The notes under the pieces: generated by a model
Database searches by the model: none
What the model was told of the DNA's origin: nothing
Seen by the model: the letters and a program-made list of their open reading frames with translations, nothing else
Program-made: the position numbers and the translations under genes
IMG/VR virus record: IMGVR_UViG_3300009285_010806
Location: 1 to 49,371 of that record
Origin: a virus
Strand: one strand, 5' to 3'
DNA length: 49,371 bases
Shown here: positions 2,973-40,836 of the stretch, piece after piece
How the letters are laid out: each line of letters opens with the position of its first letter
Numbering within the stretch: position 1 is the stretch's first letter

Positions 2973-3784
2973 ACTAAACGCCTACGATATCTATTTAAAA
3001 TAGTATTTACTTCTTTAGGAATATCTTTATCTTCAAAAACCTCCTCAATATTTTCCATTTTATATCTCTTAACACCAAAACCATCTTCATCGTTTCTATT
3101 ATGAAAATATTTTGTTAATATTTTTATAGCAAGTTTTAAATCTTTTGGCATATTCGTACTGGAATAACCAGCTGTACAATCAACAATTATATTTTGTGAG
3201 CCAATTGGCCATCCCCAAGAGCGGCGAATATATCCCTTATTCAAATCAACTGAAAAACTATCTTCTGCATCATCAGGCATACATAAATAAGCCCAATTGT
3301 TATTTATAGCATTTAAACCATAAACCTCTATCAATTCAGTTGATTTAAAATTAGAATATACTGAAGACAAAACTTCAGCTGACCAACCAGAAATAGCAGA
3401 AATAGCAGTAGCCACAGCCGACATAGTTGTGTTTGCAGCAAAAGTTATCGACGTATTTGCAGTGCCATTGTAAACAAGGCGAATGCCAGTCGAAGTAACA
3501 GATACAGAAGCAGTAGAGTTAGCATTTGTATTTTTCACTTTTAAAACATCTAAAATATTTATTGAAACCCTATCAACAGCGGTTAAGGGATAATCTTCTA
3601 AAAAAAGGATATTTTCCCCATTTCCATCATATCTTTTTTTAGAATAAGAAGTTGACTCAAACTCTCTTTTGCAAAATTGTTTTACAAGTAATTCAACATC
3701 TTCATGAATCAAAGTAATTGCGGCAAATTCTGCTTCACTCGGATCACTAAAAAAATCACTCATTTCGCTAGTTGGAACGATCAT
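2969..3784 (-). CDS. Head-tail connector protein (gp6-like) with an inserted domain
   Basis: The N-terminus (LLVKQFCKREFESTSY, then DYPLTAVDRVSI) and the C-terminus (YSSTNMPKDLKLAIKILTKYFHNR, then a basic end) are those of HK97 gp6/SPP1 gp15-type connectors, which form the ring beneath the portal. At 271 residues it is much longer than the usual 100-200. About residues 85-165 are an insertion rich in T, S, A and V, probably a beta-sandwich decoration on the connector ring. The start codon overlaps the stop of the zinc-binding gene as TAATG. Confidence 0.7.
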   Translation of the reverse strand: MIVPTSEMSDFFSDPSEAEFAAITLIHEDVELLVKQFCKREFESTSYSKKRYDGNGENILFLEDYPLTAVDRVSINILDVLKVKNTNANSTASVSVTSTGIRLVYNGTANTSITFAANTTMSAVATAISAISGWSAEVLSSVYSNFKSTELIEVYGLNAINNNWAYLCMPDDAEDSFSVDLNKGYIRRSWGWPIGSQNIIVDCTAGYSSTNMPKDLKLAIKILTKYFHNRNDEDGFGVKRYKMENIEEVFEDKDIPKEVNTILNRYRRRLV

Positions 3785-4158
3785 TATAAATTATCCTCAT
3801 TAAAATAAATTCCCCCAAACTCACTAGAACATTTAGGACAGCTCCCCATCCAAATAATATGATGGCGATAAGAAAGTTTCGATATTTCCCTTAAAACCCA
3901 TACATTGCTCAAACAATTTAAACAAAAAAGAAGGGTCCAATTATTTTCGAATAAAGCAATTGAACATTCATCGCAAATCGGTATACAGAACTCTTTATCA
4001 ATTGTAACATCTCCATACTCCTTATTATTTTTTTGACCTATTGGACAAATAATGCAATTAGTTGCTTTTCTAGTTAATTTATCATATGGTCCATGAGAAA
4101 GAAAACAAATCTCATTGCTCAAAGTAGCAATTAATGCTGCTTTATCACATTTGTCCAT
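3784..4158 (-). CDS. Small cysteine-rich, probably zinc-binding protein
   Basis: The protein has 124 residues with paired cysteines (CIICPI near 35, CIPICDEC near 58-65, CLNC near 79-82, CPKC near 108-111), suggesting two zinc knuckles. It has no signal peptide and no family I can name. It sits between the beta-helix protein and the connector block, in the same operon. Confidence 0.55.
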   Translation of the reverse strand: MDKCDKAALIATLSNEICFLSHGPYDKLTRKATNCIICPIGQKNNKEYGDVTIDKEFCIPICDECSIALFENNWTLLFCLNCLSNVWVLREISKLSYRHHIIWMGSCPKCSSEFGGIYFNEDNL

Positions 4159-12020: not shown

Positions 12021-13274
12021 TTAACTACGAGTCGCAAGAACCACTATAGGACTAATAGTATCACTTGTTGCTTGAGGTGGAGTGATAGCACTCTTCCAGG
12101 CACACTGACCATCAATTCGAAATACAAATTTGAAAGCGGTTTGATCATAATCAAATTTTAAATGAACTGAAGAACTATAATTTCCACCTTCATTCCCTGC
12201 CTTAAGAGCAACATAATATTGGCTCCAATCAACAAGAATAATATCTCCAACAGTCCCTAGAGTAGAACAATGTTTATTCCATACAATAGGAAGACCAAAA
12301 AGAGTATCAAATGGCCGTCCAGCTGCACCATTTGCAGGCATAAAAACTGGGATTCCTCCAGTTCCTACAGCAAGGCTCATAGTGGCGAGCTGTGGCAAAG
12401 TGTTAGGATTTGCCATCCAAATTGCCCTACTTCTGTCACTAATGCGAGCATACATTTTAAGAATATTTTCAAACAAAATAGTAGTCGCAAGCTGACCAGA
12501 TTCAGCAGAAACAGTTACAATAGCAGGAGCATTTAAAATACCTTGAGGTTGTCCAGCTCCAGTGCCACGAAGTAACTTATCATTAAGTTCATAAGTAAGA
12601 GCATCTCTAAAAGAGTCTCTTAGGATTACCTCCATAGATGATGGAGAATCTTGAATAATCTCATCAGTCACATACGCAAGCAAACCAAGCTTCTTAAGAT
12701 TCAACCGCATTTTGCCAAACTTAAGAGAACCAGCTGTATGCTGTTCCTCTTCATCCATCCATGTAACCTGGACATTCCCATACACTTTTCCAGAACTCTC
12801 ATCAAACCCATTAACATAGGGCATCTCAATAGTATTCCGTTGTAAATAAACTTTACGAGTACGACTAAAGGCAAGATCCTCCTGAGTAATAGGTTTCATG
12901 AGTTCAGCATTCCACTCCGGAGGAATTAAATAAGCTCCAGCTTCATTATCAGAAATATTTTGTGATGGGGTTCCAGCAGCCTTAGCTACCCATGATTGCA
13001 TAGTCTTAGAAAGATTTCCCCGCCCAGCAGACCAAACCTCTTTCCCAAATTCGCTAAGAGTCTTAAATCCACCCTTAGGATCTTTATCAAGAGGCTCATC
13101 ACCAACACTAATCCGCTTATCTACAGAATCACTAAATTCCTTAAATTTCTTATCTAACTCTTCGCTCATAGCCTTCGTATACTCATTAATAGATGCAGTA
13201 ACTTCAGGTTGAACAGTTGACTTTACTACTTCCTTTAGATCATCCATTGTCATCTTCTTAGTATTCTCACTCAT
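12021..13274 (-). CDS. HK97-fold major capsid protein
   Basis: The protein has 417 residues. Residues 1-60 are a charged coiled coil, the 'delta' scaffolding region removed by the prohead protease. The mature body begins near residue 100 with features of the HK97 capsid family: NEAGAYLIPPEWNAELM, RDSFRDALTYELNDKLLRGTGAGQPQGIL, IWMANPNTLPQLATM, LFGLPIVWNKHCSTLGTVGDIILVDWSQY, and a final strand with DGQCAWKSAI. It assembles the icosahedral shell. An AGGTAA-type site (GGAGG at 7-10 nt) precedes the ATG. A sigma-28-like sequence lies inside the upstream gene at 13759-13786. Confidence 0.95.
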   Translation of the reverse strand: MSENTKKMTMDDLKEVVKSTVQPEVTASINEYTKAMSEELDKKFKEFSDSVDKRISVGDEPLDKDPKGGFKTLSEFGKEVWSAGRGNLSKTMQSWVAKAAGTPSQNISDNEAGAYLIPPEWNAELMKPITQEDLAFSRTRKVYLQRNTIEMPYVNGFDESSGKVYGNVQVTWMDEEEQHTAGSLKFGKMRLNLKKLGLLAYVTDEIIQDSPSSMEVILRDSFRDALTYELNDKLLRGTGAGQPQGILNAPAIVTVSAESGQLATTILFENILKMYARISDRSRAIWMANPNTLPQLATMSLAVGTGGIPVFMPANGAAGRPFDTLFGLPIVWNKHCSTLGTVGDIILVDWSQYYVALKAGNEGGNYSSSVHLKFDYDQTAFKFVFRIDGQCAWKSAITPPQATSDTISPIVVLATRS

Positions 13275-13379: not shown

Positions 13380-15881
13380 TTAGAAAATAATTCCCTTTGC
13401 TTTCATCAATCTTTCATCAAAAATATCTTTTGCTGAAGGAGCAAATTTAATTACCTCGCTCAGCATTCCCTTCACAGTTGACTTAAAATCTTCAATATCA
13501 AGTTCTATTTCTTTTTCACAAATTTCTAAAACAGGAGCTTCTTCCATTTCCACATCAATTTCAACTGATTTTGCTTTAGGTTTTTTAATTTCATTAATTA
13601 ATTCTTTTTGCCCCTGAATTTGTTCTAAAGCTTTCATTAAGGCAACATCTATCTCAATAGATTCATCTTCAGAAATCATTTGAGCTAAATCAACTAACTC
13701 TTTTAAATAAGCTCCAGAAAAATTTTCAGTTTTTTGAACAAATTCATCAATATTATACTTATCGGCATTTTTAATCCATTTCTTTAACATTTTCTTTCTG
13801 TTATCTTCATTTGGCATTGAAAATTCAACAATGTGATGAAAACGACCAGGACGATCAATTAAAGCATCTGGCAATTCTTCTGGAAAGTTAGAAGTAAGAA
13901 TAGTAAGCACTCCTTTATTATTTCTAATTCCATCCATTTCGGTTTTTAAAAGGTCAACAGTATATCCATTCAACCAAGTATCAATGTCTTCAATAAAGAA
14001 AATAGAAGGAGCTAATTCTCTTGCCATTTCAAAACCAAGCCCAAGAGTATAATTAGCAGAATATTTAAAATCTTTTGAAGATGCCCAAATAAAAGTAGTA
14101 TCTGATTTTTCCATTAAAACGCGGCCGCAACGAGTTTTCCCATTGCCAGGCTTGCCAAAGAAAATCATCCCCCTACTATTTTTTTCTTTTGATAAATGTT
14201 CTACATTTCTTTTAATTACATTTTTTGTTTCATCAGATGGGAAAATAACATCTTCCCACTCAATTCCTGTTTTTTCTAAAAATTCTCCCCCAACTGAAAA
14301 TTTTTCGCCCTTCAAAAGGTTATTTTCTTTTGCCCATTTGACAGAATCAGAAATAATTCCCTTAAGAAAATCCGACTGGTTTTTATGAGAAAAGAAAACT
14401 ATCTCATTCCCACCCCAAGAAGGAATATATTGAATAACAAAATTTTCAGCATCTTTAGATTTATAAAACCTTGTCCCTGAAATTAAGAATTCTTCTGCCT
14501 TCTTAGAATCAAGCTGAATAATTTCATAATTTAACGGAACCTCAAACCCGTTATAAGTAAAATTTCTTTCATCTAAAAGAGAATGAGGAGATAAAACATT
14601 TTTAAAAGCACTAAAATAATTCCCCGTCATTGCATGAGGAACAAAAAATGCTGTAGTAAAAATATCCTTCACCTTGCACTTCAAAAATTTAGTAAAAATC
14701 TTATATTCAAAACCATATGGCTCAGTTTTCACTTGCGTAATATCAAAATCTTCTCCATATTGCTTTTTAACAATTTCGGTTTTTTGTTTTTCATCTAAAT
14801 TTTTAACATTTAAAGAGTTTAACAATTTCTGAATTCTTTCAACTTCAGTTTGTTCATTTTTTATTTCAACTTGTTTTTCCTCTTGCTGGCTTTCTTTTTG
14901 AACAATTTCTAATTCCTTTTCGATTATTTCATCAAGGGAAAATTCTAGAATTTCATCATTCCCTTCTTTCTTTTCATTTTTCAATTCGGCTATTTGCTTC
15001 TCAAATAAATCTTCTCTTTCTTCTTCCCCCAAGCTATTCCATTCATCAACAGAAAGACAAGATTTCTCAAATGCCTTAGCCACCAAACCACCAAGAGAAA
15101 TTACAGCCCCATCGAATAAATTGATATCAGAAGGCAATTTAGAACTACCCAACAATGACTTTATATCATCTTCTTCCAATTTTTCTGCTTCTTCCTTTTC
15201 GCAATTACAATTTTCGCAATTATTTTCACATTCTTTCTTTTCCAAATCAATAAAACCAACTACTTTTGCCTTATCTTCATCTTGAACTGTAATTAATTCA
15301 ATATATTCAGGAGACTCTTTAATCTTTACTACAAGTTCTTGGATTTCTTTAGATTTAATTAATCCTTTTTGCTCACAATCAACTAAAGACTTAACATTTC
15401 TAATAATATTGGCATCTGGACATGCTGGAATAGAAACAGCTGACAGCTCAAGAAGCTCTACCTCTTCATAAACTGTATGGGGAACGCTCCCGTCTTTATC
15501 TTTATATTTTACTTCATCCTCATTGTCATATTCTTTAATTGGGCGAAACCCCACTGAAAATGAATTCATAAATCCATTAGAATAAAGATAATATAATTCA
15601 TTTCCCAAATCCGTACTAGCAAACTGAATTTTAAATTTTAAACCCTTTTCATCCGGTTTCTGCCAAAGAGACTTCCCCACAGGCAAAGAATTATATGAAT
15701 GATTAAGCAATATCACAGGGTTTTTACGATAATTTTTCAACCCTTTTTCCGTCCAAGCACTCGGCAAAATCATCTCCCCGTGACGATCTGTCGAACCAGT
15801 TGACGCATAACAAACAATGCTTCGCTCATCATCCCTATTTTCATTCTTCTGAATATATGCAAACATTTTATTTTCTAGCAT
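13380..15881 (-). CDS. Prohead protease (S78) fused to an AAA+ ATPase
   Basis: The ATG at 15881 (AGGAGG 6 nt upstream) gives 833 residues; a GTG at 15884 is too close. Residues 1-165 are an HK97-type prohead protease: LLNHSY (His near 61), NSFSVGF (Ser near 109) and ELLELSAVSIPACPDA. Residues 200-370 are acidic, coiled-coil-like, with a cysteine cluster near 218-228. Residues 385-550 are an unrecognised domain. About 565-760 form an AAA+ module: Walker A GKPGNGKT near 576-583, Walker B IFFIEDID near 627-634, sensor 1 TSN near 664, RPGRF arginine finger near 677-681, and sensor 2 GAYLKEL. Standalone proteases of this family are about 200 residues. The fusion suggests ATP-driven handling of scaffold or capsid during maturation (inference). 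It lies immediately before the capsid gene. Confidence 0.85.
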   Translation of the reverse strand: MLENKMFAYIQKNENRDDERSIVCYASTGSTDRHGEMILPSAWTEKGLKNYRKNPVILLNHSYNSLPVGKSLWQKPDEKGLKFKIQFASTDLGNELYYLYSNGFMNSFSVGFRPIKEYDNEDEVKYKDKDGSVPHTVYEEVELLELSAVSIPACPDANIIRNVKSLVDCEQKGLIKSKEIQELVVKIKESPEYIELITVQDEDKAKVVGFIDLEKKECENNCENCNCEKEEAEKLEEDDIKSLLGSSKLPSDINLFDGAVISLGGLVAKAFEKSCLSVDEWNSLGEEEREDLFEKQIAELKNEKKEGNDEILEFSLDEIIEKELEIVQKESQQEEKQVEIKNEQTEVERIQKLLNSLNVKNLDEKQKTEIVKKQYGEDFDITQVKTEPYGFEYKIFTKFLKCKVKDIFTTAFFVPHAMTGNYFSAFKNVLSPHSLLDERNFTYNGFEVPLNYEIIQLDSKKAEEFLISGTRFYKSKDAENFVIQYIPSWGGNEIVFFSHKNQSDFLKGIISDSVKWAKENNLLKGEKFSVGGEFLEKTGIEWEDVIFPSDETKNVIKRNVEHLSKEKNSRGMIFFGKPGNGKTRCGRVLMEKSDTTFIWASSKDFKYSANYTLGLGFEMARELAPSIFFIEDIDTWLNGYTVDLLKTEMDGIRNNKGVLTILTSNFPEELPDALIDRPGRFHHIVEFSMPNEDNRKKMLKKWIKNADKYNIDEFVQKTENFSGAYLKELVDLAQMISEDESIEIDVALMKALEQIQGQKELINEIKKPKAKSVEIDVEMEEAPVLEICEKEIELDIEDFKSTVKGMLSEVIKFAPSAKDIFDERLMKAKGIIF
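13759..13786 (-). promoter_or_regulatory. Sigma-28-like sequence inside the protease-ATPase gene
   Basis: On the minus strand it reads TAAA, 16 nt, GCCGATAA, the same spacing as the five intergenic copies and a perfect -10 octamer. The GTTT extension of -35 is missing. It lies about 485 nt upstream of the capsid start and could give extra capsid mRNA. Because it is in coding sequence it could also be chance. Confidence 0.35.
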
Positions 15882-15895
15882 CACTATCCTCCTAA

Positions 15896-18020: not shown

Positions 18021-19400
18021 TTAGATTTCAAGCAATTGATTCAATTGTTTAGGCGATGAAACTATATTTCCCTCACTAGATCCATTTACGATGCTAGCCA
18101 AAAGCCCCTGTTGATTCGTATAATTGACAGGAATAAAGGGGTCAGAAAAAACACCGCCCTTAGGATCTAGCCCTATCTTAATTCTTTCTTCATCCACAGA
18201 AGTAATAGAAGTCTGAATCCTTTTTACCGATTCATTTAAATCTTGATCCCTATTAGAAGGAATGCACTCATCATACATAACAAATAATCGAGAATCATAA
18301 TTACCTATCAACTTCTCATTCAATTTTTCTTCATTTCTAAGAAGTCTTGGCTTAATGCCAAAACGCATATAAGTAGAAATAGCAGCTTCAGCATTATTCC
18401 TATTAGCCTCTTGTGAATATAGTCCAAGTGGTTGATTATATGCATTAAGAATCATTTCTCTAATAACTTCCCGCCCCTTTAAATGACTCATCTCTTTAGG
18501 AGTAACATTTAAGGGTTTATATTTTAACCCATTATCAACTAATGGTTGTTTGCCAGAATTAATAGCCCCACCAAAAGATTGCTGAAGTTCTTGCTTGAGC
18601 CTTTCAAACTCGTGGTCGCCAAGATTTTCATCTGTCTCCCAAACACCCGAAATTGCACCAAAATTGCGGAACATGGCCTCTTCATAAATATTGATCGATT
18701 TAAACAGACCAAATTCTTCTGCTATGCTGCTAAACGGAGGAAATCCATAATATTGACTTCGTGGATTAGACATTTTAAAATGTATAACTTGCCTCTCAGC
18801 TAAATCAATCTCTTCAGACCCCTTTATATATTTATACCCCTTAATAAATTTTTGCTTATCTGGAACAATCTTTATATTTTGAGTAGGGATAATCCAAAAT
18901 TCCTTTGGTATTCCAATTTTATTTTCTAATACATAAATATAAGCATTCCCTGTTAATTCCAAAAAAAGCTGGATAGTCTCTTTAAAATCAAATTGGTTCA
19001 TAAACCCATTAATATTTCTCATTGAATCCAAAAATGGGTGTTCGAGAATTTCCTGAAATTCAACTGCTTTTTTAACGGCAGGAAGCCCTTGCAATGTTGG
19101 GCTTTCTTTAATTTGCTTTTCTACATTTTTTTCTACAGTCCTTGCTTCATAACCCTTTAATTTTTGCCCCTTATTATTCTTTGCCACATACAAACGCAAT
19201 GGAACACTAGCGCAAGAAACTGCATTTTTCCCAGCAGCTACATATATCCACCCCTTATACGAATTTACCATCTTATAATAATCATCTTCGCTATACAACT
19301 CCCTACCATATTGCCAATTATACAACCAGGGCAAAGCACCTTTTCTTGGTCTGCCCGGCCCTTTAGCTTTTAATCCAATTTCATAATCAAATGGGTTCAT
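18021..19400 (-). CDS. HK97-type portal protein
   Basis: The protein has 459 residues. The family features are in order: SYKGWIYVAAGKNAVSCASVPLRLY (residues 48-72), FLELTGNAYIYVL (about 145-157), IPTQNIKIVPD, AERQVIHFKMSNPRSQYYGFPP (about 205-226), FGLFKSINIYEEAMFRNFG, and NAYNQPLGLYSQEANRNNAEAA (about 325-346). It forms the dodecameric DNA entry/exit ring on which TerL docks. Length and position directly after TerL are normal. Confidence 0.93.
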   Translation of the reverse strand: MNPFDYEIGLKAKGPGRPRKGALPWLYNWQYGRELYSEDDYYKMVNSYKGWIYVAAGKNAVSCASVPLRLYVAKNNKGQKLKGYEARTVEKNVEKQIKESPTLQGLPAVKKAVEFQEILEHPFLDSMRNINGFMNQFDFKETIQLFLELTGNAYIYVLENKIGIPKEFWIIPTQNIKIVPDKQKFIKGYKYIKGSEEIDLAERQVIHFKMSNPRSQYYGFPPFSSIAEEFGLFKSINIYEEAMFRNFGAISGVWETDENLGDHEFERLKQELQQSFGGAINSGKQPLVDNGLKYKPLNVTPKEMSHLKGREVIREMILNAYNQPLGLYSQEANRNNAEAAISTYMRFGIKPRLLRNEEKLNEKLIGNYDSRLFVMYDECIPSNRDQDLNESVKRIQTSITSVDEERIKIGLDPKGGVFSDPFIPVNYTNQQGLLASIVNGSSEGNIVSSPKQLNQLLEI

Positions 19401-19731: not shown

Positions 19732-21462
19732 TTAAACCATCCGTATCCGTGGGACACTTGGATTATAAAAGCACTGTATTAATGAATCAGCCCAATCAGG
19801 ACTTCTTCCCAATTCCTTTCTCATTCCTTTTTTATCTGTTACCCGAATTCGCCCATTGCTAGGGTCTTCATAAAATTCAGGGACAAGCAATTCTCTTTTT
19901 AAATCATTATTATCTGGCAACATCGCTGAGGGGTCAGTACGCAACCATTCTCGAACAGCCCACCACAATTCGTCCCTTATATGCCAAAACCTCCCTATTT
20001 CGCATTTTTTTTCACTTGGAGCTGAAACATATACTTTTTTTACATTTATATGCCCTTTCACCAAATCTACATCTTTACATTTTGGGCATTTTATGATATT
20101 TTGATCATGATAAGGAGATTGGCACTCAGGACAACGAAAATAAGAATATCTCCCTAATTTCGGAGGGATAGCAGCCCCAATGCCATCAGACTCAATATTA
20201 ATTTGATAAGCATTTACATTAGCGTAGATTATAGCTGTTTTTGAAGAAGAAAGATCTGTATCAATTCCTCCCCATCTTTCAAAACCAGCAACAAATGATC
20301 CATATTTTTTGCAGATGCAACAATAATCAGCTCCTTCATCAGCAACATCCATTCCTAATAATGGCAGAATCCCTTCAGTTGCCTTATCTCCATATTGAGC
20401 CTTATAAAGTTTCCATCTGACAATAGCCTGATTTATCCATTCTTCATTAATTAATTGATTAGCAGAAAAAGGAGGGTAAACGCCAAGAACAACATATGAA
20501 AAAGCATAATTTGTAATTCTTCTAATTCCTCCCTGTAATGGAGGATACTCTTGCCCTGAGCCACTTTTAACAATTGTCCCTTCTAAGAATTTAGGAACTT
20601 CAAAACAATTTCGATCTATCTCTTCTCCATCTATTAAAGGCGCTGTCCACTCAATAATTCTCTGAACAGTTTTCTTTCTTGTAACAGCTCCGTCTATTAA
20701 ATTTTCTCCAGTGACAACATTTGGATGGTTAAAAGCATTTAAAGAAATTACATTGGCTCTACCATTTTGAATCAACTCATAAGCTCGCCCCAATCTTCTC
20801 TTGGGGTTATACATTATAAGCATTCTAGCCCATTCACCAGATTGACAACCATCCATCCCTATATAAATTTCATCAGGAACTGCGTCTCCCTCGTCTAATA
20901 TAAAAAATTGATACGGAGCATGATATCCGGAAAATTTAGAAATCTTCTCTTCACTATCTCCAGCAGAGGGAATAACAATCCCATAAATCATATGTTTTTC
21001 TTTATCGTCACCTTCATCGTCCCCAAATTTTTCCAAATCTTCACAAATTTTAAAAGATAATTTTCTATCTTTAGCGAATAATTTAGGTTTCCTCCTCGCC
21101 CACCCTTTTATCTCTTGCCAAAGTTTTTCTAAATTTCTTTCAGGAGGCGCCGCAACTGTTAAAATTTGTGAATTGGGATAACATCTGTATATCCACACCG
21201 CAAGCGCAGAAGCAAGCCAAGTTTTACCATATGCTGTACATGATTGTGCTACAGTTACTTCATTATCTCTAACTGATTCCGCTACCTTCACAAGAGCATC
21301 AGGGAGGTACTTCACATCAAGTTCTTTTTGAATAAACCCTACCGGATCATTTTGATAAAAAGAATAATCCCTTTCTTCTAAGAATTTTCTGATTTCATCA
21401 TCAGAATAGCTCCCCATTATATCATCAGCAATTGCCTCAATATCTAATTCTTCAAAATTCAA
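19732..21462 (-). CDS. Terminase large subunit (TerL)
   Basis: The protein has 576 residues. The ATPase half has a deviant Walker A, QSCTAYGKTW (about residues 73-82), then a Walker B with the catalytic acid, FFILDEGDAV (about 186-195), and the coupling motif MYNPKRR. The RNase H-like nuclease half starts with GMDVADEGADYC (about 370-381) and ends with RSPDWADSLIQCFY. A CxxC-x12-CxxC zinc ribbon (CPECQSPYHDQ...CPKC, about 439-458) is inserted in the nuclease half, which is not a standard TerL feature. It pumps and cuts DNA at the portal. The gene follows TerS. Confidence 0.93.
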   Translation of the reverse strand: MNFEELDIEAIADDIMGSYSDDEIRKFLEERDYSFYQNDPVGFIQKELDVKYLPDALVKVAESVRDNEVTVAQSCTAYGKTWLASALAVWIYRCYPNSQILTVAAPPERNLEKLWQEIKGWARRKPKLFAKDRKLSFKICEDLEKFGDDEGDDKEKHMIYGIVIPSAGDSEEKISKFSGYHAPYQFFILDEGDAVPDEIYIGMDGCQSGEWARMLIMYNPKRRLGRAYELIQNGRANVISLNAFNHPNVVTGENLIDGAVTRKKTVQRIIEWTAPLIDGEEIDRNCFEVPKFLEGTIVKSGSGQEYPPLQGGIRRITNYAFSYVVLGVYPPFSANQLINEEWINQAIVRWKLYKAQYGDKATEGILPLLGMDVADEGADYCCICKKYGSFVAGFERWGGIDTDLSSSKTAIIYANVNAYQINIESDGIGAAIPPKLGRYSYFRCPECQSPYHDQNIIKCPKCKDVDLVKGHINVKKVYVSAPSEKKCEIGRFWHIRDELWWAVREWLRTDPSAMLPDNNDLKRELLVPEFYEDPSNGRIRVTDKKGMRKELGRSPDWADSLIQCFYNPSVPRIRMV

Positions 21463-22647: not shown

Positions 22648-22738
22648 TGGCGGAAAGTAGAGGATTTGAACCCCTGTAAGTTTTACCTTAACCTTTGATT
22701 AGCAATCAAGTGCATTAACCAGACTCTGCCAACTTTCC
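22648..22738 (-). tRNA. tRNA-Ser(GCT)
   Basis: The acceptor stem is GGAAAGT/ACTTTCC with discriminator G and an encoded CCA. The anticodon loop TTGCTAA gives anticodon GCT (codons AGC/AGU). The long variable arm and the TTCAAAT T-loop fit a bacterial class II serine tRNA of 91 nt. It is the distal of two tandem tRNAs in the late operon. Confidence 0.93.
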
Positions 22739-22743
22739 ATTTT

Positions 22744-22830
22744 TGGTGGGAGAAGAAGGACTCGAACCTCCAAGTTTTAAAACTACTACCGGGTTACAGC
22801 CGGGTGCGTTACCACTTCCGCCATTCTCCC
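22744..22830 (-). tRNA. tRNA-Tyr(GTA)
   Basis: The acceptor stem is GGGAGAA/TTCTCCC with discriminator A and an encoded CCA. The anticodon loop CTGTAAC gives anticodon GTA. It has a long variable arm, as in bacterial tyrosine tRNAs, and a TTCGAGT T-loop; 87 nt. It is 5 nt from the serine tRNA, so the two are probably processed from one transcript. A CCA-adding enzyme is encoded at 39538. Confidence 0.93.
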
Positions 22831-29086: not shown

Positions 29087-30523
29087 ATGGAAAAGATGAA
29101 TTTTCTTTCATATCTTGATGCTAATTACCCTCTGCTTTTGATTGCCTCTTATGAAGAAGAGCGAGTTATTGCAGAATTGTCAAAACAAGCAGAAGGATAT
29201 AATTGTTTCCACTGGGATATTGTAGATGGTTTTCGTAATTGCAATGGACAAAAAACACAGGATTGCAACAACCCAGTTGAAGCCCTATCTATTGCAATAT
29301 CTTTGGAAATATCTTCCGTTGTATTTTTCAAAGATTTTCATCGTTTTACAGATGAGCTTGAGTTTTGTCGTACTACAAAATCAATTATTGCAGAGCTAAA
29401 AAAACGAGATATCCATATTGTATTTCTGGCTCCAAAAATCAATATCCCGATAGAGCTGGAAAAAGATATCACTGTAATTGATTTCCCATTGCCCGATATT
29501 AATGAACTTATAACTGTTGCGCAAAAGCTTATTGATAGTAACCCTGAGTTAAACTTAACTATCGATAGCAATATCATTGCAGGAGCACGAGGATTAACAC
29601 TAATGGAGGCTGAAAATTCTTTTGCTCGATCAATAATTACAGCAAAGGCTTTTGACCGGGAAATTCTTGAGACTGAAAAACTGCAAATAGTCAAAAAATC
29701 CGGATTAATGGAAATTTACCCGGCCGAATCTATCAATAATGTCGGCGGGTTAAAGCCCCTAAAAAAATATATTGAGTCTCGTAAGCGTGGCTTTTTTGAT
29801 GCTAAACTACCGACTCCACACGGTATTCTTTTAGCCGGATTGCCAGGAAGCGGCAAAAGCCTTGCTGCAAAAGCCATTGCAAGTGTCCTTGGAATGCCCT
29901 TAATTCGATTAGACCTTGGAACACTGAAAGGTTCTCTTGTTGGCCAGTCTGAGGAAAACATGAAAAAAGCCTGCAACATGATTGATGCAATTTCTCCATG
30001 CGTCGTTTGGCTTGATGAAATTGAGAAATCATTAGCGGGAGTTACCGGCAGTGCAGGAACAGACAGCGGTACATCCGCTAATATGTTTGGACAATTGCTA
30101 ACATGGATGCAGGAAAGCAAAGCTCAAAAATATATTGTAGCGACTTGCAATGATATTGATGATTTACTTTCATTGTCACAAGGAGCTTTAATCCGCCGTT
30201 TCGATGATATTTTCTTTGTTGACCTACCGAACAATCAGGAAAAACAAGAAATTCTAGCGATAATGAAGCGGAAATATAATGCAGAGAGCCTTGATTGTTC
30301 AGGGGCCTCTATGGATAAATGGACAGGAGCAGAGATCGAGAAATTTATCATCAATGCTCTTTATGATGGAGTGGGAGCAGCAGCAAAAAATATTCGGCCA
30401 ATTGCTATACAAAATCAGATTAAGATTGACAAAGCCAGAGAATGGGCTAAATATAACGCTATATGGGCAAACGAACAAGAAAGCGAGCCTATAACAACAA
30501 TCGGAAGAAAGCTCAAAGTTTGA
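29087..30523 (+). CDS. Ycf46-like AAA+ ATPase
   Basis: The 478-residue protein has an N-terminal domain (1-200) with LLLIASYEEERVIAEL and VVFFKDFH, like the inactive first half of Ycf46 proteins. The AAA+ core follows: INNVGGLKPLKKYIE (216-230), Walker A GLPGSGKS (251-258), Walker B VVWLDEIEK (306-314), sensor 1 ATCND (352-356) and ALIRRFDDIFFVDLP (367-381), the characteristic Ycf46 segment with arginine fingers. It probably forms a hexamer that remodels a protein substrate. The start follows AGGAGAAACGACA, the leader also used by the next gene. Confidence 0.8.
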   Translation: MEKMNFLSYLDANYPLLLIASYEEERVIAELSKQAEGYNCFHWDIVDGFRNCNGQKTQDCNNPVEALSIAISLEISSVVFFKDFHRFTDELEFCRTTKSIIAELKKRDIHIVFLAPKINIPIELEKDITVIDFPLPDINELITVAQKLIDSNPELNLTIDSNIIAGARGLTLMEAENSFARSIITAKAFDREILETEKLQIVKKSGLMEIYPAESINNVGGLKPLKKYIESRKRGFFDAKLPTPHGILLAGLPGSGKSLAAKAIASVLGMPLIRLDLGTLKGSLVGQSEENMKKACNMIDAISPCVVWLDEIEKSLAGVTGSAGTDSGTSANMFGQLLTWMQESKAQKYIVATCNDIDDLLSLSQGALIRRFDDIFFVDLPNNQEKQEILAIMKRKYNAESLDCSGASMDKWTGAEIEKFIINALYDGVGAAAKNIRPIAIQNQIKIDKAREWAKYNAIWANEQESEPITTIGRKLKV

Positions 30524-30565
30524 AATTTTCTTATAACCCAATCCATGAGAAAAGGAGAAACGACA

Positions 30566-31453
30566 ATGAAAGATCTTAGCAATATTTTCAACTCATGCTG
30601 TCTGTTGCAGGTTTCTTGCTCGATTTGGCCAGGAAAAAAGGGCATCGACAAGAAAAAAGTCAAAGAAGCTCTTGATACGGAATGGGCAAGCGGCAAGAAA
30701 AACACTGTGAATAAAGATGAATTGAAAGCATTAAATAACCTCAGAACTTCAATTCATTTGTTTGTAAAATCCTACACAACTCCATTTCCAATTGACGGCA
30801 TCAATATGGTTTCGTTCGGACTTGTAGAGAGAGTAGAAAAAGAATTGAAAGAGACCTTTCTTCCACAATTCAATGAGCTTGCCGACAATTTCTGCTCTAA
30901 ATATCCGGAGCTAAAGCGGCAAGCACGAGAAGAACTTGAGCCCAAAGGGTTATATGATGAAAAGGATTACCCTCGCAATATCGATGAACATTTTAACCTT
31001 ATCTGGCGTTTTGTTACAATACAAGCGCCAGGAGAAAATTCTTTGCTGTCTCCGGAAATTGTAAAACGGGAACAACAAAAATTTATTGATACAATTCAAG
31101 AGGCTCAAGATTTAGCTTTATCTGTTTTACACGATGAACTTGCCAAGCTGGTCCGGCATTGCGTGGAACGTCTCACTCCGGAAAAAGATGGAACTCCAAA
31201 ACAATTCAGGAAAAACACTATTGAAAACTTTCAGACTTTCTTTGAATCGTTCAAGGAAAGAAACGTTTTCAACAATAAAGAGCTAACTAAGCTCGTGGAA
31301 AACGCAAAGAAAATCATATCCGGTGTTAATCCTGAGCAATTGCGAGATGATGCGCCATTTAGAGATAAAATACGAGCGTCCTTAGCCGGTGTTTCAGAAC
31401 AAATCAACAACGCTATTGAAAACGCTCCATATCGGAAGCTAAGAATTAGATGA
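30566..31453 (+). CDS. DUF3150-like protein
   Basis: The ATG at 30566 follows AGGAGAAACGACA; an upstream in-frame ATG lies before that site. The 295-residue protein is largely helical: CCLLQVSCSIWPGKKG at the start, NNLRTSIHLFVKSYTTPFPIDGINMV, then long charged helices. This is the pattern of DUF3150 proteins, which accompany AAA+ ATPases in phages and mobile elements. It is likely the client or partner of the Ycf46-like ATPase. It overlaps the next small gene as ATGA. Confidence 0.65.
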   Translation: MKDLSNIFNSCCLLQVSCSIWPGKKGIDKKKVKEALDTEWASGKKNTVNKDELKALNNLRTSIHLFVKSYTTPFPIDGINMVSFGLVERVEKELKETFLPQFNELADNFCSKYPELKRQAREELEPKGLYDEKDYPRNIDEHFNLIWRFVTIQAPGENSLLSPEIVKREQQKFIDTIQEAQDLALSVLHDELAKLVRHCVERLTPEKDGTPKQFRKNTIENFQTFFESFKERNVFNNKELTKLVENAKKIISGVNPEQLRDDAPFRDKIRASLAGVSEQINNAIENAPYRKLRIR

Positions 31454-39537: not shown

Positions 39538-40836
39538 ATGGACCATTTAGAGATTATAAATAAGTTAAAAGAAAATAACCATCAAGCCTTTATTGTAGGG
39601 GGAATCCTCAGAGATGAATTATTAGGAATAGAATCTCGGGATATAGACATAGCCACATCGGCTTATCCTCTTCAAATATGTGAAATTTTTAAAAACTCAA
39701 AACCTCTTTTAGTTGGGGAATCTTTTGGAGTAGTCCTTATCGATAGCTATGACGTAGCAACTTTTCGGTCAGACAGGTATAATGGGCTAGATCATAAAGA
39801 CTGCAAAGTTTCTTTTGTTGATACAATTGAAGAAGATTTAGCAAGAAGAGATTTCACTATAAACGCTCTTGCTCGTGATGGAGAAAAAATCATTGATCCC
39901 TTTAATGGCGCAGAAGATTGCAAGAATAGAATCATTCGCTTTGTTGGCAATCCCCAAGATAGAATCAACGAAGATCCAGACAGAATAATTAGGGCTTGTC
40001 GATTCCTAGCTAAAATAGAGGGGGAATTCGAAAAAAATACTTTTAGTGCTTTGAAAAATAATGCTAGGCTTATTCAATACATAGCTCCTGAAAGAATAAA
40101 AATTGAAATATTAAAAGCCTTAAATATTAAAAATGCTTCTATGTTTTTTGAAGCATTACATAACATTGGTTGTCTAGAATATATTTTCCCCCGCCTGAAA
40201 GATACCTGTCATCATAACCATGGCAAATTTCATAGAGAAACAGTGTGGGATCATTGTATGGTTGTAGGAGATTGTATTTCCACAAAATATCCTTTAATTA
40301 AATTAGCTGGCTATCTTCACGACATTGCAAAACCGACTTGCTATATTGAAGATTCTTTTATTGACCATGAAATTATTGGAGCCTCTTTTATTGAAGAAGA
40401 TTTAAAATTCTTAAAATTTTCAAATGTCGAAATAACTTTTGTTGTTGGTCTTATAACTAATCACATGAGAAGTATAACAACCGATTTTAGTTACAAATCT
40501 GCAAGAAAAGCTATTAAATCCCTTTCTTTTTATAACTGTTCCTATAAGAATTTTTTACGGCTTAAAATAGCAGATAGGCAAGGAAATTTATTTAAAGAAC
40601 CATATTCTATCTCTTTGCTAAAAGATACTATCAAGAAATTTCAAGATAACCGGGATATGCCTTTGTCTACTCACGACTTGGCAATATCCGGAAAAGAAAT
40701 TATTGATTTATTAGGAATTCAGCCAGGACCATTAATCGGACAAATACAAAGAAAATTGTTGACATTTGTTATTGAGACTGGTATTAATGACAAAGATGTT
40801 TTGATTCAAGAAATTAAAAAAAATATGGAGGATTGA
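39538..40836 (+). CDS. cca: tRNA nucleotidyltransferase (CCA-adding) with HD domain
   Basis: The 432-residue protein has the class II nucleotidyltransferase head: FIVGGILRDELLG (19-31), RDIDIATSA (catalytic DxD, near 35-43), RRDFTINALA (near 103-112) and DPDRIIRACRFLAKIEG (near 145-161). An HD phosphohydrolase domain follows with HHNHGKFHRETVWDHCM and GYLHDIAKPT. It adds or repairs the 3-prime CCA of tRNAs. The phage tRNAs already encode CCA, so repair after nuclease attack is a possible purpose. AGGAAGCAAA precedes the ATG. Confidence 0.88.
   Translation: MDHLEIINKLKENNHQAFIVGGILRDELLGIESRDIDIATSAYPLQICEIFKNSKPLLVGESFGVVLIDSYDVATFRSDRYNGLDHKDCKVSFVDTIEEDLARRDFTINALARDGEKIIDPFNGAEDCKNRIIRFVGNPQDRINEDPDRIIRACRFLAKIEGEFEKNTFSALKNNARLIQYIAPERIKIEILKALNIKNASMFFEALHNIGCLEYIFPRLKDTCHHNHGKFHRETVWDHCMVVGDCISTKYPLIKLAGYLHDIAKPTCYIEDSFIDHEIIGASFIEEDLKFLKFSNVEITFVVGLITNHMRSITTDFSYKSARKAIKSLSFYNCSYKNFLRLKIADRQGNLFKEPYSISLLKDTIKKFQDNRDMPLSTHDLAISGKEIIDLLGIQPGPLIGQIQRKLLTFVIETGINDKDVLIQEIKKNMED

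Follow-up and report, generated by a model that had tools for sequence, protein, structure and literature searches.

The window, by which we mean the whole 49,371-nucleotide stretch of viral DNA analysed here (IMG/VR record IMGVR_UViG_3300009285_010806), carries a gene in which an S78 prohead protease domain and a complete AAA+ ATPase are encoded as one chain. This gene occupies the protease slot in the usual portal-protease-capsid order; along its strand the genes follow as TerS, TerL, portal, a tail-assembly-chaperone-like gene, a metallophosphoesterase, two small ORFs, the fusion and the HK97-type capsid gene (Table 1). Many uncultivated tailed phages have the fusion, and at the sensitivity used it had no carrier among isolate phages. 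Both component families are known; their combination and its breadth are the new part. We tentatively propose that the product is a bifunctional head-assembly factor, an S78 protease carrying a YjoB/Bcs1-type AAA+ chaperone-like ATPase on a flexible linker.

Table 1. Fusion gene, its domains and other features of the window
Feature	Position	Strand	Evidence
HK97-type major capsid protein, 105 bp downstream of the fusion	12021..13274	-	phrog_10, 127.8 bits
Complete fusion gene, 833 aa, stop codon included	13380..15881	-	ORF, start at ATG 15881
C-terminal tail, aa 771-834: low-confidence stretch, then two helices	13383..13574	-	AlphaFold2 model
AAA helical lid, aa 691-770	13575..13814	-	AAA_lid_3 sub-threshold; model helical
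AAA core, aa 537-690: Walker A, Walker B, sensor 1, arginine fingers	13815..14276	-	PF00004, 59.2 bits
Predicted ATPase N-domain, aa 386-536	14277..14729	-	YjoB/Bcs1 matches across N-domain and AAA
Variable linker, aa 171-385	14730..15374	-	mostly helical/disordered, low model confidence
S78 prohead protease domain, aa 13-164 (H62, S110, E146)	15393..15848	-	PF04586, 60.1 bits
AGGAGG, likely ribosome-binding site of the fusion gene	15888..15893	-	sequence read directly
Portal protein, upstream, same head module	18021..19400	-	phrog_12, 163 bits
Terminase large subunit, upstream, same module	19732..21462	-	phrog_2, 67.7 bits
Two phage tRNA genes, Ser(gct) and Tyr(gta)	22648-22830	-	
Separate second AAA protein (478 aa) beside a DUF3150 gene, other module	29087-31453	+	80.5 bits
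tRNA-nucleotidyltransferase-like gene	39538-40836	+	

Reading frame and protease half

Residues of the fusion protein are numbered with the GTG counted as residue 1. The minus-strand ORF 13380..15884 is uninterrupted, with 834 codons from this GTG and 833 from the ATG at 15881; judged from the sequence, the ATG, which has AGGAGG six bases ahead of it, is most likely the better start. An earlier, sequence-only reading of the same DNA had preferred this ATG and described a single 833-residue chain beside the capsid gene, with an S78-type His in LLNHSY and Ser in NSFSVGF and, in the ATPase, Walker A, Walker B, sensor 1 and an RPGRF arginine finger. The single open frame and all these motifs were found, and the domain search placed both Pfam families far above their cut-offs in the same chain: Peptidase_S78 at aa 13-164 (cut-off 21) and AAA at aa 573-689 (cut-off 21.2).

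The window protein also matched the phrog_80 head maturation protease family at 105 bits, and the fusion gene is the sole S78 match in the whole record. H62, S110 and E146 of the protease, as well as K583, T584, E632, D633, N666, R678 and R681 of the ATPase, were invariant in 50 of 50 aligned fusions. With the catalytic residues so conserved, both halves look active.

Classical S78 prohead proteases are about 200 aa long and ATP-independent. The fusion protein resembles this group (HK97 gp4 type, PF04586) in its above-cut-off domain, in the conserved His and Ser, and in the position of its gene between portal and capsid. Unlike them, it adds a linker and a complete AAA+ ATPase after the protease. 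The linker is acidic, with 56 D+E against 31 K+R in aa 171-380. An insertion of the ATPase into a standard protease tail with GRVLS at its end was considered, but this tail gave no match in isolate phages and weak hits only in PHROG, and the insertion could not be demonstrated. The S78-only alignment was too divergent for scanning the sequence collection.

Fused and split forms among the relatives

Scanned against IMG/VR, the window protein gave 12 relatives, and a profile scan gave 160, of which the best 80 were retained. The 83 proteins compared comprise the window protein and IMG/VR relatives, and some of the contigs are near-identical. Among these 83, 71 were one-ORF fusions, 5 were cut at a contig end and 7 were split into neighboring genes. 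After removal of near-duplicates, 49 complete relatives had a median pairwise identity of 45% (lowest, 30%). The capsid gene was observed downstream in 60 of the 65 testable fusions (median distance, 128 bp), and the remaining five extend to the end of their contig or almost to it. The sequence-only reading had looked to other phages for the same fusion, or for adjacent split genes, next to HK97 capsids, and both were thus found. It had also allowed for an assembly or base error. As dozens of other contigs carry the fusion, with pairwise identities of 30-83%, an assembly, base or frameshift artefact is ruled out.

The first profile scan was ranked by similarity to the fused protein, and for this reason a second scan was made, its matches being confirmed against the split-form ATPase of L068 (L-numbers denote loci or contigs of the relatives). 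The new loci were fused again, fell in the known split clade or were end-cut. In 18 longer records, PF04586 never gave more than one match, and each match fell within a frame 825-1286 aa long; all 18 also had the capsid family. Seven of these records had no PF04586 match at the threshold used because their protease domain is divergent, and the S78 profile from this analysis finds the protease in them.

None of the isolate phage or plasmid records covered 80% of the fusion protein, and none of the isolate phages covered 80% of a split-form ATPase. Outside viral metagenomes, a first genome scan gave zero fusions and a second gave one, whose contig (3.4 kb) had been assigned to a Cloacimonadota MAG. 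The 1338-aa 'YjoB' of Xanthomonas phage phiXF1 was weighed as a parallel from an isolate and dropped, being an AAA protein near tail-fibre genes.

In all seven split cases the S78 gene adjoins the ATPase gene. The S78 ORF of L081 ends at 3783 and its ATPase ORF begins at 3786, with the capsid gene next. The ATPase gene precedes the S78 gene in L007 (55.6 bits), and it is likewise followed by a separate protease gene in L006, L041, L068 and L069. The His and Ser motifs were read in the separate proteases of L006, L041 and L068; the L068 protease gene matches PF04586 at 36.7 bits and lies in a Mu-like module with Portal_Mu and a Mu gpT capsid. The S78 and ATPase frames of L042 overlap, perhaps through a frameshift. 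Split forms were scattered in the ATPase tree, which has a midpoint root only, many poorly supported deeper branches and one badly aligned row (L091): L006 is sister to the fused L009 (98/95), L081 is sister to the fused L079 (100/98), and L041/L068 cluster with fused forms (97/96).

Among close relatives, the two halves also differ in their divergence. L036 and L053 have ATPases that are 91% identical, capsid proteins that are 93% identical and protease domains that are 47% identical; in L046 and L038, as in this pair, the ATPases are about 91% identical and the protease domains 47-51%. These values point to mosaic exchange inside the fusion gene, between modules with separate histories. The dN/dS of the ATPase was 0.04-0.21 in seven pairs by a rough Nei-Gojobori estimate in which several dS values are near or beyond saturation, and the ATPase is probably under purifying selection. 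Since protease and ATPase recombine and separate and still remain neighbors, we read them as functionally coupled.

The neighborhood of the split genes also bears on whether the ATPase is a packaged cargo. The protease would then carry the ATPase into the head in the manner of a scaffold, and self-cleavage would free the latter for ejection into the next host cell, where it would act. In favor of such a route, prohead proteases are known to enter the prohead, and giant phages package and eject cleaved proteins (PMC7411985, PMC10052503). However, the capsid-adjacent placement persists even when the genes are split, and the YjoB/Bcs1-like fold suggests protein remodelling, which makes cargo loading distinctly improbable.

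Fold and pore region of the ATPase half

The ATPase motifs read as GKPGNGKT (Walker A), FIEDID (Walker B), TSN (sensor 1) and DRPGRF (arginine fingers). The complete AAA ATPase spans about aa 571-770, with an AAA_lid_3 match at aa 711-744 slightly below the cut-off (23.6 against 27.2 bits). In the full-length AlphaFold2 model, the protease and about aa 391-770 are predicted with high confidence, the linker and the tail with low confidence. Foldseek ranked YjoB of Bacillus subtilis first and Bcs1 next. In VIA-align, YjoB gave Z 19.4 over aa 373-758 (rmsd 8.1 Å) and Bcs1 gave Z 17.9 over aa 366-760 (rmsd 10.9 Å); rmsd values of 8-11 Å indicate that the domains are placed differently. The AAA core by itself matched Cdc48 and proteasome ATPases at tied Z.

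The sequence-only reading had called the domain at about 385-550 unrecognised, and when isolated it does match weakly. Modelled alone (pLDDT 91), the N-domain gave no Foldseek match under 0.001 and no match among PDB sequences, and its Bcs1 rows were weak (Z 5-7) and mixed with unrelated folds. Taken with the AAA module, however, it reads as a YjoB/Bcs1-like N-domain, and on the models we assign aa 385-536 as the predicted N-domain of such an ATPase. As the N-domain alone has no strong match, the assignment to the YjoB/Bcs1 subfamily rests on the whole ATPase half.

YjoB (PDB 7w42) likewise has an N-domain followed by one AAA module and is the best structural match to aa 373-758. YjoB is a cellular protein that stands alone, with about 400 aa in that structure and about 20% identity to the phage ATPase, whereas the latter is either joined to a phage head protease or has its gene next to one. 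Bcs1, the mitochondrial AAA translocase of folded proteins (PDB 9gsn, 6sh3), shares the order and fold of N-domain and AAA. The Walker B order is E-D in both Bcs1 and the fusion ATPase, and D-E in Cdc48. Bcs1 has a transmembrane helix and forms heptamers, the latter also according to the PDB entry titles. In contrast, the window protein showed no transmembrane-like segment in a simple hydropathy scan, none of its 19-residue stretches exceeding 1.6, and the hydrophobic peaks of a few relatives fall within the AAA core or the S78 domain. We therefore consider it very improbable that the protein is a Bcs1-like translocase that moves folded proteins into or onto the head during membrane-proximal assembly, in spite of its structural resemblance to Bcs1 and of the same proposal for stand-alone jumbo-phage BCS1 orthologues in the accessible text of PMC7824862.

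Compared with Cdc48, the family profile has a three-residue deletion at the aromatic W-Y-G position of pore loop 1, and the aligned pore-loop-2 region has about ten or more residues fewer. Residue 608, near pore loop 1, is Tyr or another ring residue in about half of the members, so the lack of the aromatic motif holds at the level of sequence. Residues 570-731 align onto 222-382 of YjoB with almost no net gap. Because the pore loops are shorter than those of Cdc48 and the YjoB alignment is near gap-free, a hand-over-hand threading unfoldase seems unlikely, and a chamber-type chaperone would be the better fit.

The same features bear on a processive ATP-dependent protease with the logic of FtsH or Lon, in which the ATPase would unfold scaffold or delta domains and feed them directly to the S78 site. 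This is what protease and AAA sharing one chain, with the classical AAA motifs conserved, might lead one to expect. However, the short pore loops and the long, flexible and variable linkers argue against threading into the protease, as do the viable split versions; the HExxH metalloprotease motif was found in 0 of the 83 proteins. A processive protease is the least likely of the rival explanations.

Possible role in head assembly

HK97-type capsids assemble and mature, in the textbook account, through proteolysis and stored energy, and ATP is spent on DNA packaging. The gene is a true fusion that sits in the head module and keeps its place next to the capsid gene, so the most economical reading is that assembly or maturation of the head includes a step that depends on ATP. 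The ATP-driven step put forward by the sequence-only reading is supported to this extent; a role of the ATPase in scaffold removal, or a mechanical coupling of the two activities, would be a further assumption. The prevalence of the fusion, its linkage to the capsid gene, the scattered split forms with their adjoining S78 genes, the recombination of modules that nevertheless stay together, the co-occurrence with a Mu-type module, the invariant sites, the purifying selection on the ATPase and the resemblance to YjoB/Bcs1 support the bifunctional head-assembly factor proposed above. Counted against it are that well-studied HK97-type proteases function without an ATPase, that the co-occurrence of protease and ATPase could arise from cargo loading or co-expression, and that the structural matches of the isolated, modelled N-domain are weak.

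In such a head-assembly factor, the protease part would most likely bring the chain to or into the nascent prohead, by analogy with the HK97 protease. A ring would be formed by the AAA part, its vestibule being the N-domains, and ATP would be spent on holding and remodelling segments of capsid or scaffold to let assembly and maturation cleavage go ahead. Ring formation, prohead location, substrate and the order of steps are what we infer in this scheme. More tentatively still, a widespread group of uncultivated tailed phages may possess an ATP-powered protease-chaperone machine that actively drives HK97-type capsid assembly or maturation. That many phages have a conserved ATPase built into their maturation protease points to a step of head assembly that needs energy and is as yet unstudied, and suggests a powered head-building step that the well-studied phages do without.

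Alternatively, the ATPase could be a cytoplasmic capsid chaperone that folds or solubilises capsid subunits before assembly, either cut off or kept outside the prohead, in which case the fusion would merely hold it near its client and set its dose. The natural split forms, the long and variable linker and the resemblance to YjoB, for which a role as a substrate-specific chaperone has reportedly been proposed, are consistent with this. It leaves unexplained, however, why the ATPase is so predominantly joined to the protease when it could instead be joined to the capsid protein or stand alone, and we regard the chaperone account, including the role it gives to the fusion, as unlikely, though a serious competitor.

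The sequence-only reading knew of no described system of this kind, and our search of the searchable literature, whose coverage leaves out most subscription journals, likewise found no description of a prohead protease-AAA+ fusion. The nearest published idea concerns jumbo phages, whose stand-alone BCS1 orthologues may serve head assembly according to the accessible text of Iyer et al. 2021 (PMC7824862). These are also phage-encoded BCS1-like AAA proteins with a head-assembly proposal, but that text describes them as stand-alone and does not mention a fusion to a prohead protease. The same text proposes that a jumbo-phage MoxR AAA+ protein acts with a vWA-metallopeptidase in virion assembly (PMC7824862). 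This pair, too, links an AAA+ chaperone with a peptidase; unlike the fusion, it has another AAA type, a metallopeptidase instead of S78, and separate genes.

A few further features were observed in the relatives. In the fusions of L009, L011 and L012, a small 'KPYPNEHSCRL' domain lies between S78 and ATPase, and a protein of Roseobacter phage CRP-821 annotated as major capsid protein has 37% identity to it. Many relatives have two HK97-type capsid paralogues of about 420 and 340-360 aa, often in tandem (for example, L002:8677-10972, L013:10326-14389 and L036:5091-7556). Group I introns (RF00028) were found in the capsid-gene region of L029 (12889-13156, 14032-14313 and 15150-15481), L070 (8948-9208 and 10039-10312), L104 (9997-10172) and L107 (12646-12888 and 13913-14150). 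As the capsid-protein matches are fragmented at these RF00028 sites, the capsid gene appears to carry up to three introns.
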